A stretch of 64,000 nucleotides of DNA, from IMG/VR virus record IMGVR_UViG_3300036834_000189, positions 1 to 64,000 of that record, one strand, 5' to 3'. The DNA is from a virus. The stretch's first letter is position 1, and every line of letters starts with the position of its first letter. This document shows positions 4,819 through 53,904 of this stretch, piece after piece. The notes beneath the pieces were generated by a model. It searched no databases. It worked only from the letters and a program-made list of their open reading frames with translations, and was not told the DNA's origin. Both the position numbers and the translations under genes were made by a program.

Positions 4819-6567
4819 TCAAAAAGGTATCTCTGCGTCGTCGCGCAGGGACCGGTCATCGGTCGCGGCGGGACGCCCAGCAGCGTCGAGCAGCGCCTGC
4901 TCGTCCTCGGACAACGCGACTTGCTGGGTCGGATTGTCGAGTGTCGCATCGATCACCGCCTGCTTCTCGACGATCAGCGTCGCCATCCGCGCGTCGACCG
5001 AACTGTCAAACACCAGATGCTGGACCAGGACGCTGTCGCGCTGACCGATACGATGGCAGCGGTCTTCCGCTTGGCTGACATTGCCGGGGGTCCAGTCCAG
5101 CTCGCCGAACACGACATGGCTTGCCGCGGTCAAGGTGATCCCGACGCCGGCAGCGGTGATGCTGCCGATAAACAGCAAGCAGTTCGGGTCGTTCTGGAAG
5201 CGGTCGACTTCGCCCTGGCGCTTGGCCATCGCCGTCTCGCCGGTCACTACCGCGGCGCCGGGGAACGCTTCGCGGAGCGCCTTCACGACATCATGATGAT
5301 GCACAAAGCAGACGACCTTGTCACCGGTTTCGAGGCAGTCGCGCAGATGCTCGATCAGGTGCGGGATCTTGGCGACCGCAGTGTCGTGGCGGCGGCGGCT
5401 CATCTCTTCAAAAGCCACGCCTTGCGCCTGCCGCAGCTTGCGGACGGCGGCTTCGTACTCGGCTTTGTCGCCCCGCATCTTGGCAGCGGCGAGCATGTGA
5501 CGGGCATCGCGCAGCGCGACTTCGTGGCGCGTGTGCGCTTCGTTCTCGGCCCGCACGACGCTGGCCGCGCCGTTTGCCGAGAGATTGATGATCATCCGCC
5601 GCTTCGCCGGCAGCTCGGTCAATACATCGGCTTTCTTGCGGCGCACCATGAACTTGGCGCGCATCCGGGTCTGCAGTTCTTCGAGGTTGGCAGCGCCGTT
5701 GAAATCCCAGCCGTAGCCACTGTTCGTCGCATTGGTGTAGCGGAACATGAACTTGGTGAACGACGCTCCGAGATCGTGCGGGTCGAGCGAGCGCACCAGC
5801 GGCCACAACTCGTTTGGGCGATTGACGACCGGTGTCCCGGTCATGAAGATCCGCCGACGTGCGGCGATCGGCTTGTCAAAGCCCTTTTCGCGGTCGGCAT
5901 TGGTGGCGCGGTCGGTGCCGAGCAGCGCCCGGGTCCGCTGCGCCTTCTGATTTTTTGCATAATGCGCTTCGTCGGCGACCAGCAGATCCCAGCGCCGCGC
6001 GTCGATCAGCCGCCGAATCTTGGTTATCGTCTCCCATGACGCGATGACGATCGCCGTGTCGGGGAGGTTGTCGCCCGTCGCGATCGCGATCGACATCGGG
6101 CGGACCAGCCATTTGGTCAACTCGCGCTGCCAGTTGGTGCGCAACGTGGCGGGGCAGACGATCAAGATTGTCGCGATCGTCGGGTCGGCGTTGACGACCC
6201 CGATCGCCTCGATGGTCTTGCCCAGCCCCATCTCGTCGGCGATCAGGACGTTGGCGCGGCTCATCGCATAGGCGATGCCGGCCTTCTGATAGCCGAGATA
6301 AGCGAGACCCTGGGGCACTGGAACAGCGATGTCGGCGTCTTCGGCCCGGCTCTGCGCGATCGAGCGGTTGACTGCCGCCACTGCAGCGGCGGCGGTCTTG
6401 GGGTCGAGACGCGCCGCGATGCTCGCGTCAAGGGTGTACCAGACTTTTGCCTGTCCGTCGAAGCGGAACCCGGCATTCTTCACGATATCCTTCGTCTCGT
6501 ACGAGAACGCAAACCGGGCGATCCAGCGGTCGCCTTTCTTGACAACGGTGATGGGTGACAGCGGCAT
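4819..6567 (-). CDS. SNF2-family annealing-type helicase (SMARCAL1-like)
   Basis: 582 residues. An N-terminal module (about 1-60, GDRWIARFAF, NAGFRFDGQAKVWYT) resembles the HARP-like domain of annealing helicases. The SF2 core shows motif I DEMGLGKT, motif II DEAH, motif III TGTPVVNRP, motif V around SITAAGVGITLTAA and motif VI QAEDRCHRIGQ. Such proteins use ATP to rewind or remodel forked and ssDNA-coated DNA; phage versions act in replication-fork repair. It is the first gene behind a clear promoter with a hairpin leader (6570-6631), so it starts its own transcript. Confidence 0.9.
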   Translation of the reverse strand: MPLSPITVVKKGDRWIARFAFSYETKDIVKNAGFRFDGQAKVWYTLDASIAARLDPKTAAAAVAAVNRSIAQSRAEDADIAVPVPQGLAYLGYQKAGIAYAMSRANVLIADEMGLGKTIEAIGVVNADPTIATILIVCPATLRTNWQRELTKWLVRPMSIAIATGDNLPDTAIVIASWETITKIRRLIDARRWDLLVADEAHYAKNQKAQRTRALLGTDRATNADREKGFDKPIAARRRIFMTGTPVVNRPNELWPLVRSLDPHDLGASFTKFMFRYTNATNSGYGWDFNGAANLEELQTRMRAKFMVRRKKADVLTELPAKRRMIINLSANGAASVVRAENEAHTRHEVALRDARHMLAAAKMRGDKAEYEAAVRKLRQAQGVAFEEMSRRRHDTAVAKIPHLIEHLRDCLETGDKVVCFVHHHDVVKALREAFPGAAVVTGETAMAKRQGEVDRFQNDPNCLLFIGSITAAGVGITLTAASHVVFGELDWTPGNVSQAEDRCHRIGQRDSVLVQHLVFDSSVDARMATLIVEKQAVIDATLDNPTQQVALSEDEQALLDAAGRPAATDDRSLRDDAEIPF

Positions 6568-6569
6568 TT

Positions 6570-6631
6570 GACGCTCCTGAGTGCTCGATTGCCCTCGCCC
6601 TCTTATATAACGTGATAAACGAAAAAGTCAA
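6570..6631 (-). promoter_or_regulatory. Promoter with 5'-terminal AATCGA hairpin leader
   Basis: Read leftward: TTGACT (6631-6626), 16 nt, TATATA (6609-6604), then 9 nt to GGGCAATCGAG. The transcript would begin next to an imperfect hairpin whose loop is AATCGA, directly followed by CAGGAG, the ribosome binding site of the helicase gene. The same arrangement recurs at 9634, 12843, 35080 and 36808. Confidence 0.8.
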
Positions 6632-6671: not shown

Positions 6672-6851
6672 TTATCGGTCAAGTTCGGCGCAGAAGGCCC
6701 ATGCGCACGGTCCCTCCTTCATGGAGACCTCGATTTGGCGAATTATCTCGTCGACCTTATCGGGCGTCAATCGCTCGCCGCAGTGCGCGGTCAAGATATT
6801 CCTAATTTCAAAGTTGCGCGTTGCCTCTGCGTCGTTAAACTTTTCAGACAT
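6672..6851 (-). CDS. Small hypothetical protein
   Basis: 59 residues starting at ATG 6851 behind AAGGGAAG. Charged and probably helical (DAEATRNFEIRNIL, TPDKVDEIIRQIEVSM) with two Cys and a Trp near the end. Last gene before the helicase promoter. No family recognised. Confidence 0.6.
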   Translation of the reverse strand: MSEKFNDAEATRNFEIRNILTAHCGERLTPDKVDEIIRQIEVSMKEGPCAWAFCAELDR

Positions 6852-9187: not shown

Positions 9188-9619
9188 TTACAGTCCCATT
9201 AGGGCGCGACATTCTGGTCCAAGTCCAGTATCCACCGACGAAGGAACTGTTAGCTTGCGGCCACAGCGCCCGCATGACCCTTCGTGGCGGATCTCCATCT
9301 CCGGGGGCATCCGGTCCTGCGCGATGTGCTTCCAGAAAAACTGGAACGCCCGCACCGGGATGCTGTCGGCGCTGTACTTCGACTTGGCGGTGAGCCGGAA
9401 GCCCGCCGTGTCGTTCAGCATCCCCATGTACTGGTAGTCGACATAGTTGTCAGGGCCGGTCAGCAGCCCGACGAACCACACGTCTTTAGGGTTGCCCGCG
9501 TCATCCTCGGCGCGCCTGATCTTGTAGGTGTAGCGGGCGCCGGTGCGCTCGCTGCTGAGCGTGATCGTGGCGTTGCCCGCCAGCGTGTAGGTTTTGACAT
9601 CGGCTGTGTCGTGGAACAT
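9188..9619 (-). CDS. DUF6011-like phage protein with C-terminal zinc knuckle
   Basis: 143 residues. N-terminal two thirds form a predicted beta-rich domain (TLAGNATITLSSERTGARYT, VWFVGLLTGPDNYVDYQYMG). The C-terminus has CGRCGRKLTVPSSVDTGLGP followed by EC, the pattern of the DUF6011 zinc motif common in phages of high-GC hosts. First gene of a transcript: a promoter with an AATCGA hairpin lies directly upstream and CCGGAG precedes the ATG. Molecular role unknown. Confidence 0.75.
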   Translation of the reverse strand: MFHDTADVKTYTLAGNATITLSSERTGARYTYKIRRAEDDAGNPKDVWFVGLLTGPDNYVDYQYMGMLNDTAGFRLTAKSKYSADSIPVRAFQFFWKHIAQDRMPPEMEIRHEGSCGRCGRKLTVPSSVDTGLGPECRALMGL

Positions 9620-9630
9620 CGTGAGACTCC

Positions 9631-9690
9631 GGTGAGCGAGGGCTCGATTGCCCGCACTCTTAAAATAGTGATTTCTGCTAAAAAAGTCAA
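9631..9690 (-). promoter_or_regulatory. Promoter with AATCGA hairpin leader
   Basis: Read leftward: TTGACT (9690-9685), 17 nt, TATTTT (9667-9662), 8 nt, then GGGCAATCGAGCCC forming the apical part of a longer imperfect hairpin (GAG...CTC at the base) just before the ribosome binding site. Drives the DUF6011-like gene. The next 190 nt upstream (9691-9880) show no convincing gene. Confidence 0.8.
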
Positions 9691-11068: not shown

Positions 11069-11098
11069 GATATATGCGAGGTTTCACGCGAAAATCAA
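11069..11098 (-). promoter_or_regulatory. Putative promoter for HTH gene
   Basis: Leftward TTGATT (11098-11093), 18 nt, TATATC (11074-11069), about 25 nt before the ATG of the HTH regulator. No AATCGA hairpin here. Lies between the array and the gene. Confidence 0.55.
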
Positions 11099-12646: not shown

Positions 12647-12826
12647 TCATGGCTGCCCCCTCAACTTTTCTGCCAGCCGCTTCTCCAGTTCACGGCGTTC
12701 AATCTGGGTTGCTGCGAGATCGGGATGAACGCGGCGCTGGTGTTGCTCTGGGGTTTCGTCGAACCACGGTGGCGGCTCGTCGTTCAGCAGGGCGCGCATC
12801 GAGCATTGGATGCAGACGGTCGGCAT
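12647..12826 (-). CDS. Small zinc-pair protein
   Basis: 59 residues from ATG 12826 with AGGAGGAG immediately upstream. CIQCSMRALL at the start, then FDETPEQHQRRVHPDLAATQ and a charged helix (RRELEKRLAEKL). One CxxC plus His residues could bind zinc. The pattern occurs in small alphaproteobacterial phage proteins. First gene behind the hairpin promoter at 12843-12900. Confidence 0.65.
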   Translation of the reverse strand: MPTVCIQCSMRALLNDEPPPWFDETPEQHQRRVHPDLAATQIERRELEKRLAEKLRGQP

Positions 12827-12841: not shown

Positions 12842-12900
12842 AGTGAGCGACTCGATTGCCCTCACGAATGCTTATATATCGCACTTTACTAATAAGTCAA
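12842..12900 (-). promoter_or_regulatory. Promoter with AATCGA hairpin leader
   Basis: Leftward TTGACT (12900-12895), 16 nt, TATATA (12878-12873), 11 nt, GGGCAATCGAG. The leader folds as GTGAG...CTCAC around the AATCGA loop, and AGGAGGAG follows for the gene at 12826. It likely drives the transcript carrying the small zinc protein, the secreted protein and SciP copy 1. Confidence 0.8.
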
Positions 12901-31697: not shown

Positions 31698-32342
31698 TTA
31701 TACGCGTGCCTCGACGCCTACCAGCTGAGCTTGCAGCTCGGCAATCGTCGCTTCGAGCTGGGCGATCTTAGCTCGCAGCTCGTCGATCGTCTGCCGCAGA
31801 TCGGCAATCGTCGCCTCTTGGCTGTCGAGCAGGCGCTGCGTGGCATTGGGTCCGGTGCGCGCTCGATTTGGTCGCCGGAACGGCGGTAGTGTCGCGCCCG
31901 GCGTGGGACCGATATCGTCGCTTTCCGGCCACTCGACAGGGAGCGATTCCTGCCAGCGTTTAAAGACGGTCGCGGGGTGATTGAAGCGCAGTCTGTCGCG
32001 GTCGTCCAGAGTCGCGCGCCACGCTGTGATCGCTTCCAGATTTTCGATGCATTGCTTGAGCATCGAACGGTCGCGCGGCGGGATCTCGTCCAGTTCGGTT
32101 GCTCTCAGGATCTGGCCCCAGGCTGCGTTGTACTCGGCGCTGATGGTGGAGTTGAAGCGCTGCTGCCGCATCATTGTCATGCGCGCCGACTCGATGCACT
32201 CGCCGACGATCACCCAGCCTTCCCATGTCTTCGTATTGCGAATCTTGTCCCACGCTTTGGCGGCGACCAACAATGTTCTAATCAACCCTGGACGACATTC
32301 GAGCTTGCGCAGCTCTTCCCGCATTTCATTTATGCTTATCAT
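31698..32342 (-). CDS. Hypothetical protein with C-terminal coiled coil
   Basis: 214 residues from ATG 32342. N-terminal helical domain (MREELRKLECRPGLIRTLLV, TWEGWVIVGECIESARM), a Trp-containing middle and a leucine-heptad coiled coil at the end (IADLRQTIDELRAKIAQLEA). First leftward gene from the divergent promoter region, so an early product. A dimeric regulator or scaffold is plausible; no family recognised. Confidence 0.65.
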   Translation of the reverse strand: MISINEMREELRKLECRPGLIRTLLVAAKAWDKIRNTKTWEGWVIVGECIESARMTMMRQQRFNSTISAEYNAAWGQILRATELDEIPPRDRSMLKQCIENLEAITAWRATLDDRDRLRFNHPATVFKRWQESLPVEWPESDDIGPTPGATLPPFRRPNRARTGPNATQRLLDSQEATIADLRQTIDELRAKIAQLEATIAELQAQLVGVEARV

Positions 32343-32364: not shown

Positions 32365-32444
32365 AACGATTGCACTGGTGCAATCGTTGGCCCGTCATTC
32401 GCAGTGGCGGCTCTAATATCTAACAAAACTTTTTAAAAAGTCAA
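32365..32444 (-). promoter_or_regulatory. Leftward promoter and perfect 11-bp palindrome (operator candidate)
   Basis: Leftward TTGACT (32444-32439), 16 nt, TAGATA (32422-32417). Downstream lies a perfect inverted repeat, AACGATTGCAC and GTGCAATCGTT with a 2-nt centre (32365-32388), just before AAAGGA of the 32342 gene. The half-site contains GCAATCG, the core of the hairpin leaders elsewhere. It could be a repressor site or a leader hairpin. Confidence 0.7.
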
Positions 32445-33002: not shown

Positions 33003-33024
33003 GTCTAATCTGGTATAACTTCAA

Positions 33025-33061
33025 GAGGGATCGATGGTCTAATGTCGATCCCTCTTTTTTT
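33025..33061 (+). terminator. Rho-independent terminator
   Basis: Perfect 10-bp stem GAGGGATCGA / TCGATCCCTC followed by seven T residues, directly after the 32574 gene. Confidence 0.93.
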
Positions 33062-33073
33062 GGAGTCTGAGGT

Positions 33074-34168
33074 ATGCCGAGAAACATCGACGAATTGGAC
33101 GATCTCGCCAACAAGCTGCGCGTGGACTATCGGAAAGCGTTTAATTATGGCGCTTGTGTAGCACGAGATTATTTCGAAGCTAAGAGCAGGATCGAATCTG
33201 GCGAATATGGATCACGTACGGCTCCCAATGGAAGGGTCGTACCGTGGGACATGAACAGCTGGATGATCGATAAGGTTCGTCTTTTCGACTCGCAGATCGT
33301 AAAGTTCATATTGCTCTTCCAACGCGTACTGGCTGATGGTGATCGTGCTGCGCTGCAAGCTCAACAGCAGCGCGTTAAGCAGGAACGCCGGGAGACACGT
33401 GACGCCGCTGCTCAAGCGGCTCGGGCCGTCCGAGAGGCCGCTGCTCGCGAGCGTGATGCCGTTAGACAACAGAAGGCTGCCGAGAAGGCGGTCGAGGAAG
33501 CTGAGAAGGCGGCTAAAGCAGCTGAGAAACAACACAAGGACGCTGCCGAGAAAGCGGCCAAAAAGAAAGCCGCTCAAAAAGCCGCGCGCGATCCCGACCG
33601 CAACGAACGGGGTCGGCGCAAAGTCATCGAGAACAAGGGCATTACGATGCTGAAGGAGATGCTCGCCAGTGAGCGACTACCGTTGTCGACTTGCGAGCGC
33701 ATCGCTCGCATGCCGGCAGAAGCGCAACCACAGGGGATCGACGAGGCGCTCGCTAACCCTCGGGTTCGCTCATTTCCAGCGCGCCACCGTCCGTCAGCCG
33801 ATGAGAAGGTCGCGGGCGTGACCGCCGCGCTAAACGCAGAGCGCTCACGTGCTACGAGCCAGACCGCGTCGACTGCGCCGGCTGAGCCAGCAGACCAGCG
33901 GTTGGCTTCACTGCTCGCCGAGTGTAGGCAGATCGAGAGCACCTCACGTATCGAGCTAGGCAAGCGCTACGCGGCGATGAAGGAAATTGTCCAGACTCAG
34001 CAGGCAGGACTCGACCCCAGCGGAAAACATTGGACATGGGGTGCCTGGGCGAAAGCTTACATCCAGCGCTCGCGTCAGGATATCAACAGATGCATCGCGG
34101 AGTTTGGAACATCATGTTCCAAAACACAGGACGACAATGTAATTATTTTGCGCAAAAATATTAATTAG
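33074..34168 (+). CDS. Coiled-coil protein with two similar end domains
   Basis: 364 residues. N-terminal domain (1-95: AFNYGACVARDYFEAKSRI, VVPWDMNSWMIDKVRLF) and C-terminal segment (285-350: ELGKRYAAMKEIVQTQQAGL, KHWTWGAWAKAYIQRSRQDI) look related to each other and to DUF3102-like segments near plasmid and phage replication genes. A long Ala/Lys/Glu coiled coil (95-175) separates them. Possibly a DNA-organising or replication protein. No terminator separates it from the HTH gene that follows. Confidence 0.6.
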   Translation: MPRNIDELDDLANKLRVDYRKAFNYGACVARDYFEAKSRIESGEYGSRTAPNGRVVPWDMNSWMIDKVRLFDSQIVKFILLFQRVLADGDRAALQAQQQRVKQERRETRDAAAQAARAVREAAARERDAVRQQKAAEKAVEEAEKAAKAAEKQHKDAAEKAAKKKAAQKAARDPDRNERGRRKVIENKGITMLKEMLASERLPLSTCERIARMPAEAQPQGIDEALANPRVRSFPARHRPSADEKVAGVTAALNAERSRATSQTASTAPAEPADQRLASLLAECRQIESTSRIELGKRYAAMKEIVQTQQAGLDPSGKHWTWGAWAKAYIQRSRQDINRCIAEFGTSCSKTQDDNVIILRKNIN

Positions 34169-34675: not shown

Positions 34676-35053
34676 GTGTCCAATGACCTCAAATCATTAA
34701 GCTTGTGTATCAGCACTGAGGCGGCAAAGGCGCTCTTTCCGTACCTCACAAGCTCTTCCAAGATGACCGCGGAAGCCACTGAGGCAGCGATCGACCAGGC
34801 GATTGCCGACGGCAAGGTGCGCAAGGTCGCGGTGCAATATGGTGAAGAGTACTTACTCGCTGTCGACGAAAGCGACGACGTTGCAAAACAGCTGGATCAG
34901 CAGGTGATCAGAGAACTCTTTGATCGGTGTGCCGTTGAGCTGGCATGCGAAGACGAGGAACTTATGCATCGGGTGTTGATGCGAGTTGCCGTTAAGCGCG
35001 GTCTACTTGAACAAACCGGGCCGGACACCTTCCGCAAACCGTTCAAGCAGTGA
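34676..35053 (+). CDS. Hypothetical protein
   Basis: 125 residues; GTG 34676 chosen because GGAGG lies 9 nt upstream and a promoter/hairpin precedes it. The open frame extends further up but would overlap the HTH gene. Helical: KALFPYLTSSSKMTAEATEA, AIADGKVRKVAVQYGEEYLL, RELFDRCAVELACEDEELMH. It reads like a two-domain winged-helix or helical adaptor; no family recognised. Confidence 0.55.
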   Translation: MSNDLKSLSLCISTEAAKALFPYLTSSSKMTAEATEAAIDQAIADGKVRKVAVQYGEEYLLAVDESDDVAKQLDQQVIRELFDRCAVELACEDEELMHRVLMRVAVKRGLLEQTGPDTFRKPFKQ

Positions 35054-35079
35054 CCTTCCCCGCCTGCATAAGAAAGAGC

Positions 35080-35132
35080 TTGACCTTATCGGCAATCGGT
35101 ACTAAATAAATGGTGCGGGCAATCGAGCCCGC
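35080..35132 (+). promoter_or_regulatory. Promoter with perfect AATCGA hairpin leader
   Basis: TTGACC (35080-35085), 17 nt, TAAATA (35103-35108), then a perfect hairpin GCGGGC-AATCGA-GCCCGC (35115-35132) at the expected transcript start, followed by AAGGAGGAGG for the amidoligase gene. Confidence 0.85.
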
Positions 35133-35156
35133 CGAACCCAAGGAGGAGGTGGCTAA

Positions 35157-36338
35157 ATGCCATCGCGTGCCCGTCAGATCATGGACGAATGGAACGCACT
35201 CGTCCCGCAAGCTTCGCATCTCCCCGGCGTCCGCCGGTGGACCGGGATCCCGTCCACCATCGCGCAGGGGGAAGAACGCCTCGCGTGGCTGCGCGCGCGG
35301 CTCAACGGCGGCGCAGCGACACCGGCTCCCGCACCGCTGCGGATGGCGGATCGCGATACGCCGCAGGCGGCGCGCTTGCGCGCGGTCTACGAGGAATGGA
35401 ATTCGCTGGTCCCGCAAGCCGCGGGTCTGTCACGGGTCCGCGTGTGGACGCAAGTCCCGGCCGACATCGCGCGCGGCGAGGCGCGGCTCAACTGGCTCAA
35501 GACCCAGCTACGCTACCGCTCCTCGACATTGGGGCTGGACTTCGGGGTCGAGATGGAGTCGCTCTTGCCGAGCGGCACGTATCGCGAAAACCTGCGCGAC
35601 CGCCTGCGCGAAGCCGGGCTGGCTGCCGAAGTCGAGATGCTGAACCACACGACCAGAACATGGTGGAAACTGACGACCGATGGGTCGCTCGGCGATTACG
35701 TGCGCGGGGTCGAAACCGTCAGCCCGATCCTGAACGGCGACGACGGCTTTGCCGCGCTGCGCACCACCTGCCGGACCTTGACCGCGATGCGCGCCACGGT
35801 CACAAAGATATGCGGGCTCCACGTCCACGTCGGGGTGCGTGATCGCGATGTCGAGTTCTTCAAGCGGCTGATCAAGCTCTACGCCACCTTCGAGCCGGTG
35901 ATCGACCGGTTCATGGCAAAGTCGCGGCGCGCCAACAACAGCCGCTGGGCGCGCTCGATCCGTCAGTTTCACGACAGCCAGACGCTCGCCGCCGCGACCA
36001 CGCTCGATGAGCTTGGTCAGGTTTACGGGCGCGACACGCATCACCGCTCGCATCACCGCCAGTACAAGTACCGCAAGCTCAATCTGGACAATGTGTGGGA
36101 GCGCGGCACCGTCGAGTTCCGCCAACATCAAGGATCGGTCGACGCGTTAAAAGTCGAGATGTGGACCCGGCTGTGCCTGAAGATGGTGATCGCCGCGGCG
36201 AAGCCCGATCTCGTACTCGGCCCCGTCACCCTCGACGGTTTTATGACGACGATCGACGCCAGCGATGCCGAGCGCGTCTATTACGCGGCGCGCACTGCCG
36301 CATTCGCCATGCGCGCGCTCGACCAGACCAACCGATAG
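35157..36338 (+). CDS. Amidoligase-family enzyme (COOH-NH2 ligase type)
   Basis: 393 residues. Residues 7-46 and 80-120 are a tandem repeat (MDEWNALVPQASHLPGVRRW versus YEEWNSLVPQAAGLSRVRVW, each ending in a GExRLxWL helix). The catalytic domain (130-390) has amidoligase hallmarks: LGLDFGVEMES, YVRGVETVSPILNG, CGLHVHVG and TVEFRQHQGS. It belongs to the glutamine-synthetase-like ligases predicted to form peptide or amide bonds using ATP. A gamma-glutamylcyclotransferase follows at 36890, the pairing described for phage amidoligase operons. Substrate unknown. Confidence 0.82.
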   Translation: MPSRARQIMDEWNALVPQASHLPGVRRWTGIPSTIAQGEERLAWLRARLNGGAATPAPAPLRMADRDTPQAARLRAVYEEWNSLVPQAAGLSRVRVWTQVPADIARGEARLNWLKTQLRYRSSTLGLDFGVEMESLLPSGTYRENLRDRLREAGLAAEVEMLNHTTRTWWKLTTDGSLGDYVRGVETVSPILNGDDGFAALRTTCRTLTAMRATVTKICGLHVHVGVRDRDVEFFKRLIKLYATFEPVIDRFMAKSRRANNSRWARSIRQFHDSQTLAAATTLDELGQVYGRDTHHRSHHRQYKYRKLNLDNVWERGTVEFRQHQGSVDALKVEMWTRLCLKMVIAAAKPDLVLGPVTLDGFMTTIDASDAERVYYAARTAAFAMRALDQTNR

Positions 36339-36347
36339 GAGGCAATT

Positions 36348-36620
36348 ATGCGTACCCGTGACGGGATCGAACTCAGCGGCAACAGCCCCGAGGAAATCGT
36401 CAGCGATCTTCGCCGACGCTCGTTCGAGCAGGCGGGCGACAACCGCGCCTTCATGCACGAGACGCAGGGCCGGGTGACCTTGCAGATCGGCAAGCGGATT
36501 CGCTGCGACACGGCGGAGCACTTTGTCGACGATCTGATCAAAGTCGGGCTCTTGCTCGACGAGCCGAGCAAGATTGTCGAGCCGGCGAAGAAAGCGGACT
36601 GCGTCGAAGAAAGTAGCTGA
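36348..36620 (+). CDS. Small protein of the amidoligase cassette
   Basis: 90 residues from ATG 36348 behind GGAGG. ELSGNSPEEIVSDLRRRSFE, then RVTLQIGKRIRCDTAEHFVD and DLIKVGLLLDEPSKIVE. Located between the amidoligase and the cyclotransferase, so it may be the acceptor protein or a regulator of the pathway. It ends with Lys/Glu/Ser residues that could be modified. Purely contextual inference. Confidence 0.6.
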   Translation: MRTRDGIELSGNSPEEIVSDLRRRSFEQAGDNRAFMHETQGRVTLQIGKRIRCDTAEHFVDDLIKVGLLLDEPSKIVEPAKKADCVEESS

Positions 36621-36625
36621 TCGTG

Positions 36626-36811
36626 ATGATACCTACTCCCTCTACGCTAGAAGTCATGTTGTTCGGGTTTCTCTGCCAAAAGTATGTGCAAAGGGCCGAC
36701 GATCGACAGAAGGCTATGGGATTACTGTATACCGAAGCCGAGACACATGACCTAGCCCGAGAGTTAAGTCTGTGGTTCCAGATGCTGACAGAGAAGGGGC
36801 TGTCCCCTTGA
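36626..36811 (+). CDS. Very small hypothetical protein
   Basis: 61 residues (ATG 36626; GTG 36623 possible). Helical, LEVMLFGFLCQKYVQRADDR and LYTEAETHDLARELSLWFQM. Its end overlaps the -35 of the promoter for the cyclotransferase gene. Weak ribosome site; moderate support only. Confidence 0.45.
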   Translation: MIPTPSTLEVMLFGFLCQKYVQRADDRQKAMGLLYTEAETHDLARELSLWFQMLTEKGLSP

Positions 36812-36868
36812 TTTTGGGAGCTAATTCAGTATCTTTGACTACTAAGCGGGGAGGGCAATCAAGCCCTC
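36808..36868 (+). promoter_or_regulatory. Promoter with AATCAA hairpin leader
   Basis: TTGATT (36808-36813), 16 nt, TATCTT (36830-36835), then a perfect hairpin GAGGGC-AATCAA-GCCCTC (36851-36868). An alternative -10 (TACTAA) would place the hairpin closer to the start, as in the other leaders, but lacks a -35. AAAGGA follows for the gene at 36890. Confidence 0.7.
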
Positions 36869-36889
36869 GCCTGGAAAGGAACGAAAGCC

Positions 36890-37537
36890 ATGCACACAAT
36901 CTCCGCGATCGAGTATCTGCGCGACACCCAAGGCCGCTTCGTCGATCAGCCGCCGCTCCCCAAGGACCGCAAGGTCCGCAGAGCGGTCATGCCGGCGCCG
37001 ATGCGGCGCAAGGGCGGCACCTTGCTCTACGCGGCTTATGGGAGCAACCTGAACATCGCCGCGATGGCGCAGCGCTGCCCGCGCGCCGAACCGCTCTACC
37101 CGCTGATCCTCGACAATGCGGCGCTGGTGTTCCGCGGCGTCGCCGACATGGTCCATCGCAAGGGTTCGCGGTGCCCGCTCGGCATTTGGTCGATCACCCG
37201 CGAATGCGAGAAGGCGCTCGACCGCTACGAGGGTGTCAAAGGCCAAAATGGGATGTATGTGCGCCGCTGGTTCACATTGCAAATGCACAACGGATTGAAC
37301 CGCCCGGTGCTGTTCTACCAGATGCGCGAGCGCGGGGTATGCCCGCCCTCGGTGCATTATCTACAGGTCATCGAGCAAGGCTATCGCGATTTTGGTCTCG
37401 ATCCCGCTGTCCTCGAAGTGGCAGTCGAGGAGGCTTGGAAGGAGCGGCAAGTCACGCCCCGAATCGCCACGCGCTACTATCAAAAAGGTCGTCCCGAGTT
37501 TGGCCATACCTGGGATCTCGATCTGGAAGGGGGCTGA
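36890..37537 (+). CDS. Gamma-glutamylcyclotransferase-like protein (GGCT/AIG2)
   Basis: 215 residues from ATG 36890. GGCT core from about residue 44: LLYAAYGSNLNIAAMAQRCP (the YGSN loop), ALVFRGVADMVH, CPLGIWSITRECEKALDRYE (catalytic Glu expected in the ECE/EKALD region), then VLFYQMRE and an end HYLQVIEQGYRDFGLD. The family cleaves gamma-glutamyl-amine bonds with release of 5-oxoproline. Next to the amidoligase it would reverse or edit a gamma-glutamyl linkage, or process a peptide. The first ~40 residues are a phage-specific extension. Confidence 0.85.
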   Translation: MHTISAIEYLRDTQGRFVDQPPLPKDRKVRRAVMPAPMRRKGGTLLYAAYGSNLNIAAMAQRCPRAEPLYPLILDNAALVFRGVADMVHRKGSRCPLGIWSITRECEKALDRYEGVKGQNGMYVRRWFTLQMHNGLNRPVLFYQMRERGVCPPSVHYLQVIEQGYRDFGLDPAVLEVAVEEAWKERQVTPRIATRYYQKGRPEFGHTWDLDLEGG

Positions 37538-51363: not shown

Positions 51364-53904
51364 ATGGGATTCTTTTTTCCTGAGGGGATTGCGGTTCCGC
51401 AGCGCGTCGAGCGGCGTGAGCGCATGGTCAAGTTCAGAAGCAACGAGCCCTCTGCCCGGGGCTGCGACGCCTGCACATTGCAGAAGACTTGGGTGCAGCT
51501 GACCACGCCGCAGATGCCGATCGACGGGGCAGAGCGCAGCGATATTCTGGTCGTCGGCGAGGGTCCCGGCGAAGAGGAAGACTTCCGGGGCCGACCGTTT
51601 GTCGGTCGAGCCGGTGCGCTGCTTCGCAGAGTCATGCCGATGCGCCAGAGCGAGCGGATCGCGATGACCAACGCCGTGCGCTGCCGCCCGATGACCGCCA
51701 GCCGCGACAACCGCGTTCCGACTGCCCGCGAAGTCGAGGCCTGCTCGATCCATCTCGAAAACGACATTGCCGCCGGTAATTACACCGCGATTTTGGGGCT
51801 GGGCGGCGCCCCGCTGGCGCGGTTTTTCACTGAAGCGACGATCACCCAGTCGCATGGGCTCAAGTTTCCGGTCGCGATCGGCGGCAAGGTATTGTGGTAT
51901 TATCCAACCTTGCATCCCTCCTTTGTCAATCGCACCGGCGGCGACAAGTCGCCGATGCTCCCGGTGTTCGAGAACGACATCAAGACGTTTTTTCGCGATG
52001 TCGACCATTGGCCGAAGCCGGTCATCGAGAACGTCACTGCCAAATCCGTGACGTGCGCCTATGACGAGGACGAGGCCGCCGCGCTCTGTCGGCGGATGCT
52101 CGCCGCTGGAAAGCCGATCGGGTTCGACATCGAGACCAACGATCTGCGCCCCAACGTCAAGGGCGCGGCGATCATGACCGCGGCGGTTTCCGATGGCGCG
52201 GCCACGGTGGCTTGGCCGGTCAGCCACCCCGAACTGCCCAATGATTGGGGACTTCCGCTCGCGCTCAACATGACGCAGCGCTTGCGCTGGGTGGCGCATC
52301 ATGCCGGGTTCGAGCTGGCGTGGCTGACCGAGCACGCCCGCCGCCAGTCGATCCCCTGGGAGCCGGCAGCCGGGTTTGACGATTCGATGGTCGCGGCGCG
52401 CCTGTATCAGCGCCGCGCGTCGTGCCTCAATCTCGGGGTCTTGACCCGATTGTACTGCGGTGTCAACGTCAAGCGCCTCTCCGACATCAACCCGAACAAG
52501 ATCGCCGAGACCCCGCTGTCGGAAGTGCTGCCGTACAACGGACTGGATGCGTGGGGCTCGTGGCAGATCCTCGACCGGCTCGGCGACCGCGTCGACCCCG
52601 ACAATTACCGATCGATCATCGAGACGATCCAATCGGTCACCGAGATGCAATTGCTCGGTCTCGATGTCGACCGCGCCGCGGCGACGGAATTGCTCGGCGA
52701 GTGGCAGGGACGGGCGCAAGCCGCAGCGTTGCGTGCGATGACGGTGTACGAGGTCAAGCGCTATACCAAGGATCGCGAGTTCAACATCGGGTCCAACGAG
52801 CAGGTCGGCGAAGCCCTGGTGACCTATGGCCGGGTGACCTTGCCCAAGACGCCGGGCGGGCAATACTCGACCGACGACAAAACATTGACCGATGCCGCGC
52901 CCGACAACCCGCTGGTCAAGGACGTGCTGGAATACCGCCATGCCAAGAAGATGGAGTCGACTTATGTCCTCCCGGTCCTCGCCGCCGCCGAGCGGTTTGT
53001 CGACGGGCGGCTGCACCCGGTCTACAGCACCAGCTTGACCCATACCCTTCGGTTATCGTCCGAGGACGTGAACATTCAGAATTTTCCAAAGCGCAAAGAC
53101 CACGAGCTGCGCCGCCCGGTCGTCCCGCCGAAGGGCTGTCTGTGGGCATCGGCGGATTGGGGGCAGTTGGAAGCCCGAGTCTATGGGATGGCGTCGAAAG
53201 ACCCCGCGCTGTGCGATTCGATCATCGCCGACGAGGACATTCACAGCTACTGGCTCAATGTTATCCTCGAAGCCTATCCGCCCTACTTCGACCGGCTCGC
53301 CAGCAAGGTCACGCCCAACGACACCGAAGCCCAGATCCGCAAGGGCGGTCGCGACATCATCAAAAGCGACTTTGTCTTCGCCACGTTTTTTGGGACTACG
53401 GCGCGCAACGTCAGCGAACGCACCGGCATCCCCCCAGACATCGCCACCGAGGTCCTGGGATTGTTTTGGCGACGCTATGCCGCCGCTCATCGGTGGCTCA
53501 AAGGCCAGCGTTCAGGCTATCGCGACAACGCGGCGGTGCGCAATCTGTGTGGGGTCGAGCGCTACGGGATCATGCTCGGAAACGAGCCGATCAATCACCC
53601 GATCCAGTCGACTGCGGCGCGCCTCGTCCTCGAAGCACAGAACGAGGTGTTCGGTCTGGCGAAGCGGCACGGCGATCTTCACTTCATGCCGCGGATCAAT
53701 ATTCACGATGATCTCGTCTTTGCGTTGCCCGACGACAGCGACCTGATGATCACCTACATCAAAGAGATCTCCAAGGTGTTGACCAAGGTCCGGTTCGACT
53801 GGCAGATCGTACCGCTGAAGGTTGAGTGGAAGGTCGGGGCGAATTGGGCCGATCTCGAAGCGGTCCACGAGTTCACCGGCGACTACCGCCGCAAAGCGCG
53901 ATAA
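51364..53904 (+). CDS. Family A DNA polymerase with N-terminal uracil-DNA-glycosylase-like domain
   Basis: 846 residues from ATG 51364 behind GGGAGGGG. Residues ~25-215 resemble a UDG superfamily domain: CDACTLQKTW, VVGEGPGEEEDFRG and the terminal TLHPSFVNR. A 3'-5' exonuclease-like region carries GFDIETNDLRPN and ends in YNGLDAW. The polymerase domain shows motif A SADWGQLEARVYG, motif B KGGRDIIKSDFVFATFFG and motif C NIHDDLVFALP. This is the main phage replicase. HDD replaces the usual HDE of family A motif C. UDG-polymerase fusions are known in some phages such as SPO1. Confidence 0.92.
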   Translation: MGFFFPEGIAVPQRVERRERMVKFRSNEPSARGCDACTLQKTWVQLTTPQMPIDGAERSDILVVGEGPGEEEDFRGRPFVGRAGALLRRVMPMRQSERIAMTNAVRCRPMTASRDNRVPTAREVEACSIHLENDIAAGNYTAILGLGGAPLARFFTEATITQSHGLKFPVAIGGKVLWYYPTLHPSFVNRTGGDKSPMLPVFENDIKTFFRDVDHWPKPVIENVTAKSVTCAYDEDEAAALCRRMLAAGKPIGFDIETNDLRPNVKGAAIMTAAVSDGAATVAWPVSHPELPNDWGLPLALNMTQRLRWVAHHAGFELAWLTEHARRQSIPWEPAAGFDDSMVAARLYQRRASCLNLGVLTRLYCGVNVKRLSDINPNKIAETPLSEVLPYNGLDAWGSWQILDRLGDRVDPDNYRSIIETIQSVTEMQLLGLDVDRAAATELLGEWQGRAQAAALRAMTVYEVKRYTKDREFNIGSNEQVGEALVTYGRVTLPKTPGGQYSTDDKTLTDAAPDNPLVKDVLEYRHAKKMESTYVLPVLAAAERFVDGRLHPVYSTSLTHTLRLSSEDVNIQNFPKRKDHELRRPVVPPKGCLWASADWGQLEARVYGMASKDPALCDSIIADEDIHSYWLNVILEAYPPYFDRLASKVTPNDTEAQIRKGGRDIIKSDFVFATFFGTTARNVSERTGIPPDIATEVLGLFWRRYAAAHRWLKGQRSGYRDNAAVRNLCGVERYGIMLGNEPINHPIQSTAARLVLEAQNEVFGLAKRHGDLHFMPRINIHDDLVFALPDDSDLMITYIKEISKVLTKVRFDWQIVPLKVEWKVGANWADLEAVHEFTGDYRRKAR

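Follow-up and report, generated by a model that had tools for sequence, protein, structure and literature searches.

The phage genome analysed here (116,206 bp) carries ten copies of a promoter-linked hairpin with a conserved six-base loop, five in the window, the stretch of 64,000 nucleotides that corresponds to bases 1–64000 of the virus record, and five more beyond it. All ten copies are in the mRNA sense and share a single layout: a TTGA(C/T) −35 box, a spacer of 16–18 nt, an AT-rich −10 box, the hairpin, a Shine-Dalgarno sequence, and a start codon 27–40 nt past the start of the hairpin core. The cores in the window are located at 6594, 9653, and 12861 on the minus strand and at 35117 and 36853 on the plus strand; those beyond the window, at 68606, 83875, 86548, 86938, and 88071, are all on the minus strand. 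Sequence comparison supports selection on an RNA structure whose loop is kept. Similar hairpins also follow promoters in phages with no apparent relationship to this one, so the element looks like a device, as yet in no catalogue, that phages have reused at the 5′ end of their messages. Our preferred explanation, to which we assign a probability of roughly one half (0.48), is a promoter-plus-leader cassette whose 5′ hairpin would protect non-structural phage mRNAs from 5′-end-dependent decay.

The window encodes a tail sheath, a terminase small subunit, RecA, SNF2-type helicases, and, at 51364–53904 (+), a family A DNA polymerase fused in one protein to an N-terminal uracil-DNA glycosylase domain, which together identify it as a large contractile-tailed phage. 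Megablast with 24 kb from the middle of the window found no named relative among phage records at the DNA level. The DNA polymerase query matched one other IMG/VR contig (60 kb), whose best segment is 100% identical and is uninformative on divergence. The ten promoters resemble the alphaproteobacterial housekeeping form, (C)TTGAC-N17-CTATAT, a weak pointer to the host. Elsewhere in the window, a strong terminator-like hairpin with a T-run (33023–33056, +) lies immediately 5′ of an ORF at 33074, and a perfect 10-bp hairpin, AACGATTGCA-CCAG-TGCAATCGTT (32365–32388, −), with no T-run after it, sits shortly upstream of the Shine-Dalgarno sequence of the ORF at 31698–32342 (−).

At the 35117 site (+), the −35 box TTGACC (35080–35085) and the −10 box TAAATA (35103–35108) are separated by 17 nt, and the hairpin GCGGGC-AATCGA-GCCCGC (35115–35132) begins 6 nt past the −10 box with a perfect 6-bp stem. 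The first gene (35157–36338, +) encodes a 393-residue Amidoligase_2 protein and is preceded by the Shine-Dalgarno sequence AAGGAGGAGG at 35140–35149; the automatic start call is an overlapping GTG, and the ORF that carries the amidoligase domain is longer and begins at ATG 35157. The other rightward site, 36853, is the outlier: its promoter, TTGATT-16-TATCTT at 36808–36835 (+; −35 box 36808–36813, −10 box 36830–36835), is the weakest of the set, and 15 nt separate the −10 box from the perfect 6-bp stem of GAGGGC-AATCAA-GCCCTC (36851–36868, +). It precedes the gene for a 215-residue gamma-glutamyl cyclotransferase-like (AIG2) protein (36890–37537, +).

The three remaining window sites point leftward. 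Site 6594 combines the promoter TTGACT-16-TATATA at 6604–6631 (−; −35 box 6626–6631, −10 box 6604–6609) with the hairpin GAGGGC-AATCGA-GCACTC (6579–6596, −), which has one stem mismatch, ahead of a 582-residue SNF2-type helicase gene (4819–6567, −). Site 9653 has the promoter TTGACT-17-TATTTT at 9662–9690 (−; −35 box 9685–9690, −10 box 9662–9667), the hairpin GAGTGCGGGC-AATCGA-GCCCTCGCTC (9634–9659, −) with one mismatch, and a first gene for 143 residues (9188–9619, −; phrog_20259, C-terminal DUF6011). At 12861, the promoter TTGACT-16-TATATA at 12873–12900 (−; −35 box 12895–12900, −10 box 12873–12878) precedes GTGAGGGC-AATCGA-GTCGCTCAC (12843–12865, −), which contains a bulged G and one G-U pair, and a gene for 59 residues (12647–12826, −) assigned to no family. 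Wherever a first gene can be named, its product is non-structural: helicase, amidoligase, or cyclotransferase. An earlier note on this DNA had listed these five sites with their TTGA(C/T) box, spacer, AT-rich −10 box, and hairpin; all five are present as described, and each also has a Shine-Dalgarno sequence and a start codon.

The loop reads AATCGA in eight copies and AATCAA in two, and 89% of the cells of the 6-bp stem are paired across the ten copies. The stem covariation score of this set is equalled in 4 of 500 shuffles and is lost when one arm is slid along the other. Compensation is two-sided in three places, a C-G pair at 35117 and U-A pairs at 86548 and 68606. The stems are imperfect at 6594, 9653, 68606, and 83875, each with one mismatch, and at 12861, with its bulge and G-U pair. 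The earlier note had called both rightward hairpins perfect, as they are, and had described the others as compensated with the loop kept; the kept loop and the three two-sided changes bear this out, but four stems retain mismatches and one a bulge. Predicted stem energies range from −3.5 to −14.5 kcal/mol, site 6594 lying at the weak end (−3.5), and the Shine-Dalgarno sequence downstream is left free. The same note's proposal of selection on RNA structure is upheld by covariation, both in this genome and in an independent phage set described below, by the uniform mRNA sense, and by coupling to promoters. Rfam has no family for the hairpin: the window at gathering score yields a single tRNA, and a low-threshold scan of 35000–37000 gives no match at the hairpins.

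The coupling to promoters emerges from a genome scan for TTGA(C/T)-N16–18-(−10) followed by a Shine-Dalgarno sequence and a start codon, which lists all ten leaders and few others. Three sites have no hairpin: the possible promoters at 11098 (−) and 20595 (−) and a further sequence resembling a promoter at 6770 (−). Among ~186 predicted genes, such a hairpin is almost absent outside the ten starts, so the element belongs to the predicted transcript starts and not to translation starts generally. The base of the stem lies 6–8 nt past the −10 box in eight copies, 2 nt past it in 9653, and 15 nt past it in 36853. If initiation occurs ~7 nt past the −10 box, the stem falls at about +1, and from the 6–8-nt spacing the transcripts are predicted to begin at the hairpin. 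The earlier suggestion that they do so agrees with the spacing at eight of the ten sites, the other two being spaced otherwise.

The motif is enriched in this genome beyond what composition gives. There are 12 matches to the core GCAATCRAG, where 100 dinucleotide shuffles give 3.1 on average and 8 at most, and ten of the 12 are the promoter-hairpin-Shine-Dalgarno-start sites; GGCAATCRAGCC occurs eight times and its reversed control pattern not at all. Allowing two mismatches in the window removes significance (24 matches seen, 17.9 expected).

The earlier note had suggested searching other phages for the same pattern, and promoter-linked GGCAATC(A/G)AGCC hairpins of the same layout are indeed found in many viral contigs. 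An exact 14-mer scan of these contigs gives mostly chance matches; it becomes informative once a Shine-Dalgarno sequence and a start codon are required and a permuted-loop control is added. GGCAATCRAGCC followed by a Shine-Dalgarno sequence and ATG then occurs in at least 120 stretches, and among the matches listed 59 of 117 distinct ones are in leader position, compared with 30 of 105 for the permuted loop; about half of the matches are chance even under these conditions. A few of the control matches are themselves genuine leader hairpins with different loops, which implies that hairpin leaders are common in general. Twenty distinct promoter-linked examples, picked blind to the outer stem, covary strongly at the two outer pairs that were free to vary (0 of 500 shuffles score as high); the three inner pairs are fixed by the search pattern. 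Several contigs carry two to four copies. Several other phages have the stem 10–15 nt past the −10 box. The examined contigs have few or no proteins in common with this phage, the nearest (3300010048_000002) having three. With an unconstrained loop, AAT begins the loop in 11 of 123 GGGC-N6-GCCC leaders, whereas ~2 are expected at 1 in 64, and UUCG-type loops come next. The wider pattern GGGCAATNNNGCCC is found in at least 120 stretches and GGGCTAANNNGCCC in 63 in the whole collection; as a single family GGGCAATNNNGCCC was rejected, since leaders of several kinds are mixed in it. Caulobacter phage RW, related at the DNA level to contig L074, has no such hairpin, and the 50 kb examined of Salmonella phage Chi contain just one vaguely similar leader hairpin, GGGCAAAAAGGCCC. 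No earlier report of the motif was found in the open-access library searched, which omits most subscription papers.

One matching contig is the isolate Aeromonas phage vB_AhyS-A18P4 (L823), whose relatives are 80–86% identical. Their orthologous leaders keep the promoter, position, and stem, with loops of AATCCC, AATGAC, AATTCC, AACAAC, and AAACCC, and one leader of phiA034 has an unrelated hairpin, GGGGGCGCACCGGCCCCC, instead. In this group, stem and position are kept better than the loop and seem at least as important as its letters, which favours a structural role over strict loop recognition there. L823 (2634, 6046, and 8420, all minus strand) and its orthologs in L825–L827 also have a GACACC...GGTGTC palindrome between the −35 and −10 boxes, ahead of several operons. 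Nor is the motif confined to phages: bacterial genomes contain 60 exact 14-mer matches in 257 Gb. Nine of the first genes there were translated. At the Massilia, Frateuria, and Rhizobium loci L768, L772, and L785 and their relatives, the 14-mer hairpin lies ahead of genes that apparently encode the ribosomal proteins L25 (Massilia) and L35 (Frateuria) and a small secreted protein (Rhizobium).

In the proposed cassette, host RNA polymerase would initiate at the TTGAC-type promoter, and the transcript, judged by the −10 spacing, would start no more than a few nucleotides from a G+C-rich stem that closes on the loop AAUCRA. With the 5′ end paired, the triphosphate-removing enzyme and 5′-end-dependent RNases would act poorly, so that the non-structural mRNAs would live longer, while the Shine-Dalgarno sequence just downstream would remain available. 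The loop may be kept either as a compact closure of the stem or as an additional protein contact. We count in favour of this stabilizing role the ten-copy layout, the 6–8-nt spacing, the covariation with a kept loop, the stem energies, the promoter coupling, the non-structural first genes, the Aeromonas position that keeps a stable hairpin though its loop changes and in one case the hairpin itself is a different one, and the established effect of 5′ pairing. Against it count the 10–15-nt gap in 36853 and several other phages, which would leave an unpaired 5′ tail, the weak stem of 6594 (−3.5 kcal/mol), and the loop: a pure stabilizer needs no fixed loop, yet AATCRA is present in ten of ten copies, even in mismatched stems. 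Because stabilization leaves this strictness unexplained, the main rival is a phage or host protein that binds the loop on the nascent leader, the stem merely presenting it, and acts by antitermination, ribosome recruitment, or control of translation or decay. The constancy of the loop while stem and promoter spacer drift would follow naturally, as would the recurrence of the GGCAATC(A/G)AGCC core in phages for which few protein homologs to this one, or none, are detectable, and the loops of contig 3300000968_000002 (AATCGA, AATCGA, AATAGA, and AATTGA, all AATNRA). We nevertheless find a loop-binding protein doubtful: the Aeromonas loops vary and the hairpin is once replaced, no candidate binder was found, and an unsystematic look noticed no lambda boxA-like element beside the hairpin.

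Recognition could instead take place on DNA, with a repressor or activator bound to the interrupted palindrome GGGCAATCRAGCCC just 3′ of the promoter. This inverted repeat spans the site where transcription is predicted to start, as classical repressor sites often do, but its asymmetric centre is kept while its arms change in step, the opposite of the usual operator; its orientation is the same in all ten copies, and the Aeromonas phages have a clear spacer palindrome, GACACC-GGTGTC, with the hairpin separate from it, all of which makes an operator quite unlikely. Another reading is descent: TTGACTTTTTCG and similar strings are common to several spacers, so the copies are probably homologous, and a functionless hairpin might have been kept through recent copying of one cassette. 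That the spacers have diverged far and the core has not, that stem changes are compensatory, and that a similar element occurs in phages with few or no proteins in common render this very improbable. Scarcely credible is an intrinsic terminator or attenuator early in the transcript; a G+C-rich hairpin close to the transcript start would suit it, but at none of the ten sites is the hairpin, read in the mRNA sense, followed by a T-run, and a T-run scan of regions holding eight of them flags none in the mRNA sense.

Lambdoid boxB, in nut, is likewise a small early-leader hairpin with a conserved loop, and works with boxA and an N-type protein; its loop differs in sequence and length from the six-base AAUCRA, for which no boxA or N-like partner is known. 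The stabilizing reading has its closest footing in bacterial mRNA, where 5′-terminal base pairing is an established stabilizer and the Bacillus pyrophosphohydrolase requires at least two unpaired 5′ nucleotides, according to PMC3997798. Like the classical E. coli ompA/papA-type stabilizing stem-loops (Emory, Bouvet and Belasco 1992, as cited there), the phage element has a G+C-rich stem where the 5′ end is predicted, or close to it, with the Shine-Dalgarno sequence free downstream; unlike them, it occurs ten times in one genome, keeps a six-base loop, and is found in other phages too. T4-type phages have PeSL cassettes (Arbiol 2010, Comeau 2014, as cited in PMC4503421), titled ‘promoter-terminator motifs’, in which an early promoter of host type and a stem-loop are likewise repeated between phage genes. 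In the present phage, the hairpin comes after its promoter, keeps a loop of its own, and, having no T-run, is not the terminator that the PeSL title implies. Start-associated sequences (SAS, GGGATAGGAGCCC) of cluster K mycobacteriophages (PMC3203893, PMC12699233) share a short GGG...CCC motif repeated ahead of many phage genes, but the SAS consensus contains AGGAG, whereas here the Shine-Dalgarno sequence comes after the hairpin and every copy is served by a promoter of its own; the core GGGCAATCRAGCCC does not fit the SAS consensus within two mismatches, differing in the loop and containing no internal Shine-Dalgarno sequence. The T4 gp43 translational operator (PMC3014915) is a leader hairpin with a conserved loop, UAAC, belonging to the polymerase gene itself, in contrast to the ten copies here, none directly ahead of the DNA polymerase gene.

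The element is of interest because its cassette is repeated and turns up again in other phages rather than for an established new mechanism. We hold it unlikely, though worth stating, that GGCAAU...GCC leader hairpins are a widespread unnamed phage RNA element, coupled to promoters, whose loop is recognized by a factor that many bacteria share, such as RNA polymerase, the ribosome, or a decay enzyme, and which unrelated phages reuse to favour their own transcripts. If the hairpin governs message life or translation, one portable element would partly explain strong expression in otherwise unrelated phages, offering a compact, testable leader part and a short RNA family absent from Rfam. If it only stabilizes, it would be a clean natural example, with ten copies in a single genome, for weighing stem against loop contributions.

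The contig searches also brought up other leaders. In L561 (IMGVR_UViG_3300045944_000157), four GGGCAATNNNGCCC leaders at 1431, 1756, 2163, and 2455 (+) each have an upstream complement of their own GCAATNNN; these complements (GAAATTGC, GAGATCGC, and GGAATTGC), 37–42 nt upstream, change in step and enclose a 10–12-bp stem-loop, so that two mutually exclusive folds may possibly form. L561 has no Rfam match, and L546 at 1403 resembles its leaders. Two tandem hairpins occur in the leader just before the Shine-Dalgarno sequence and start codon in L513, L517, L547, L560, L592, and L605, the second being GGGCAAT(C/T)(C/T)TGCCC or similar, with an ACTCT(n)CAAG-like stretch in most of the six; these leaders are a candidate structured RNA, and the two scanned (L513 and L560) have no Rfam match. 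Finally, a spacer palindrome, GGGCCA(A/T)TGGCCC or a close form, lies just 5′ of the −10 box in L208, L450, L535, L538, L171, and L172, ahead of a leader hairpin of that same type, and looks like a repressor operator common to several phages.
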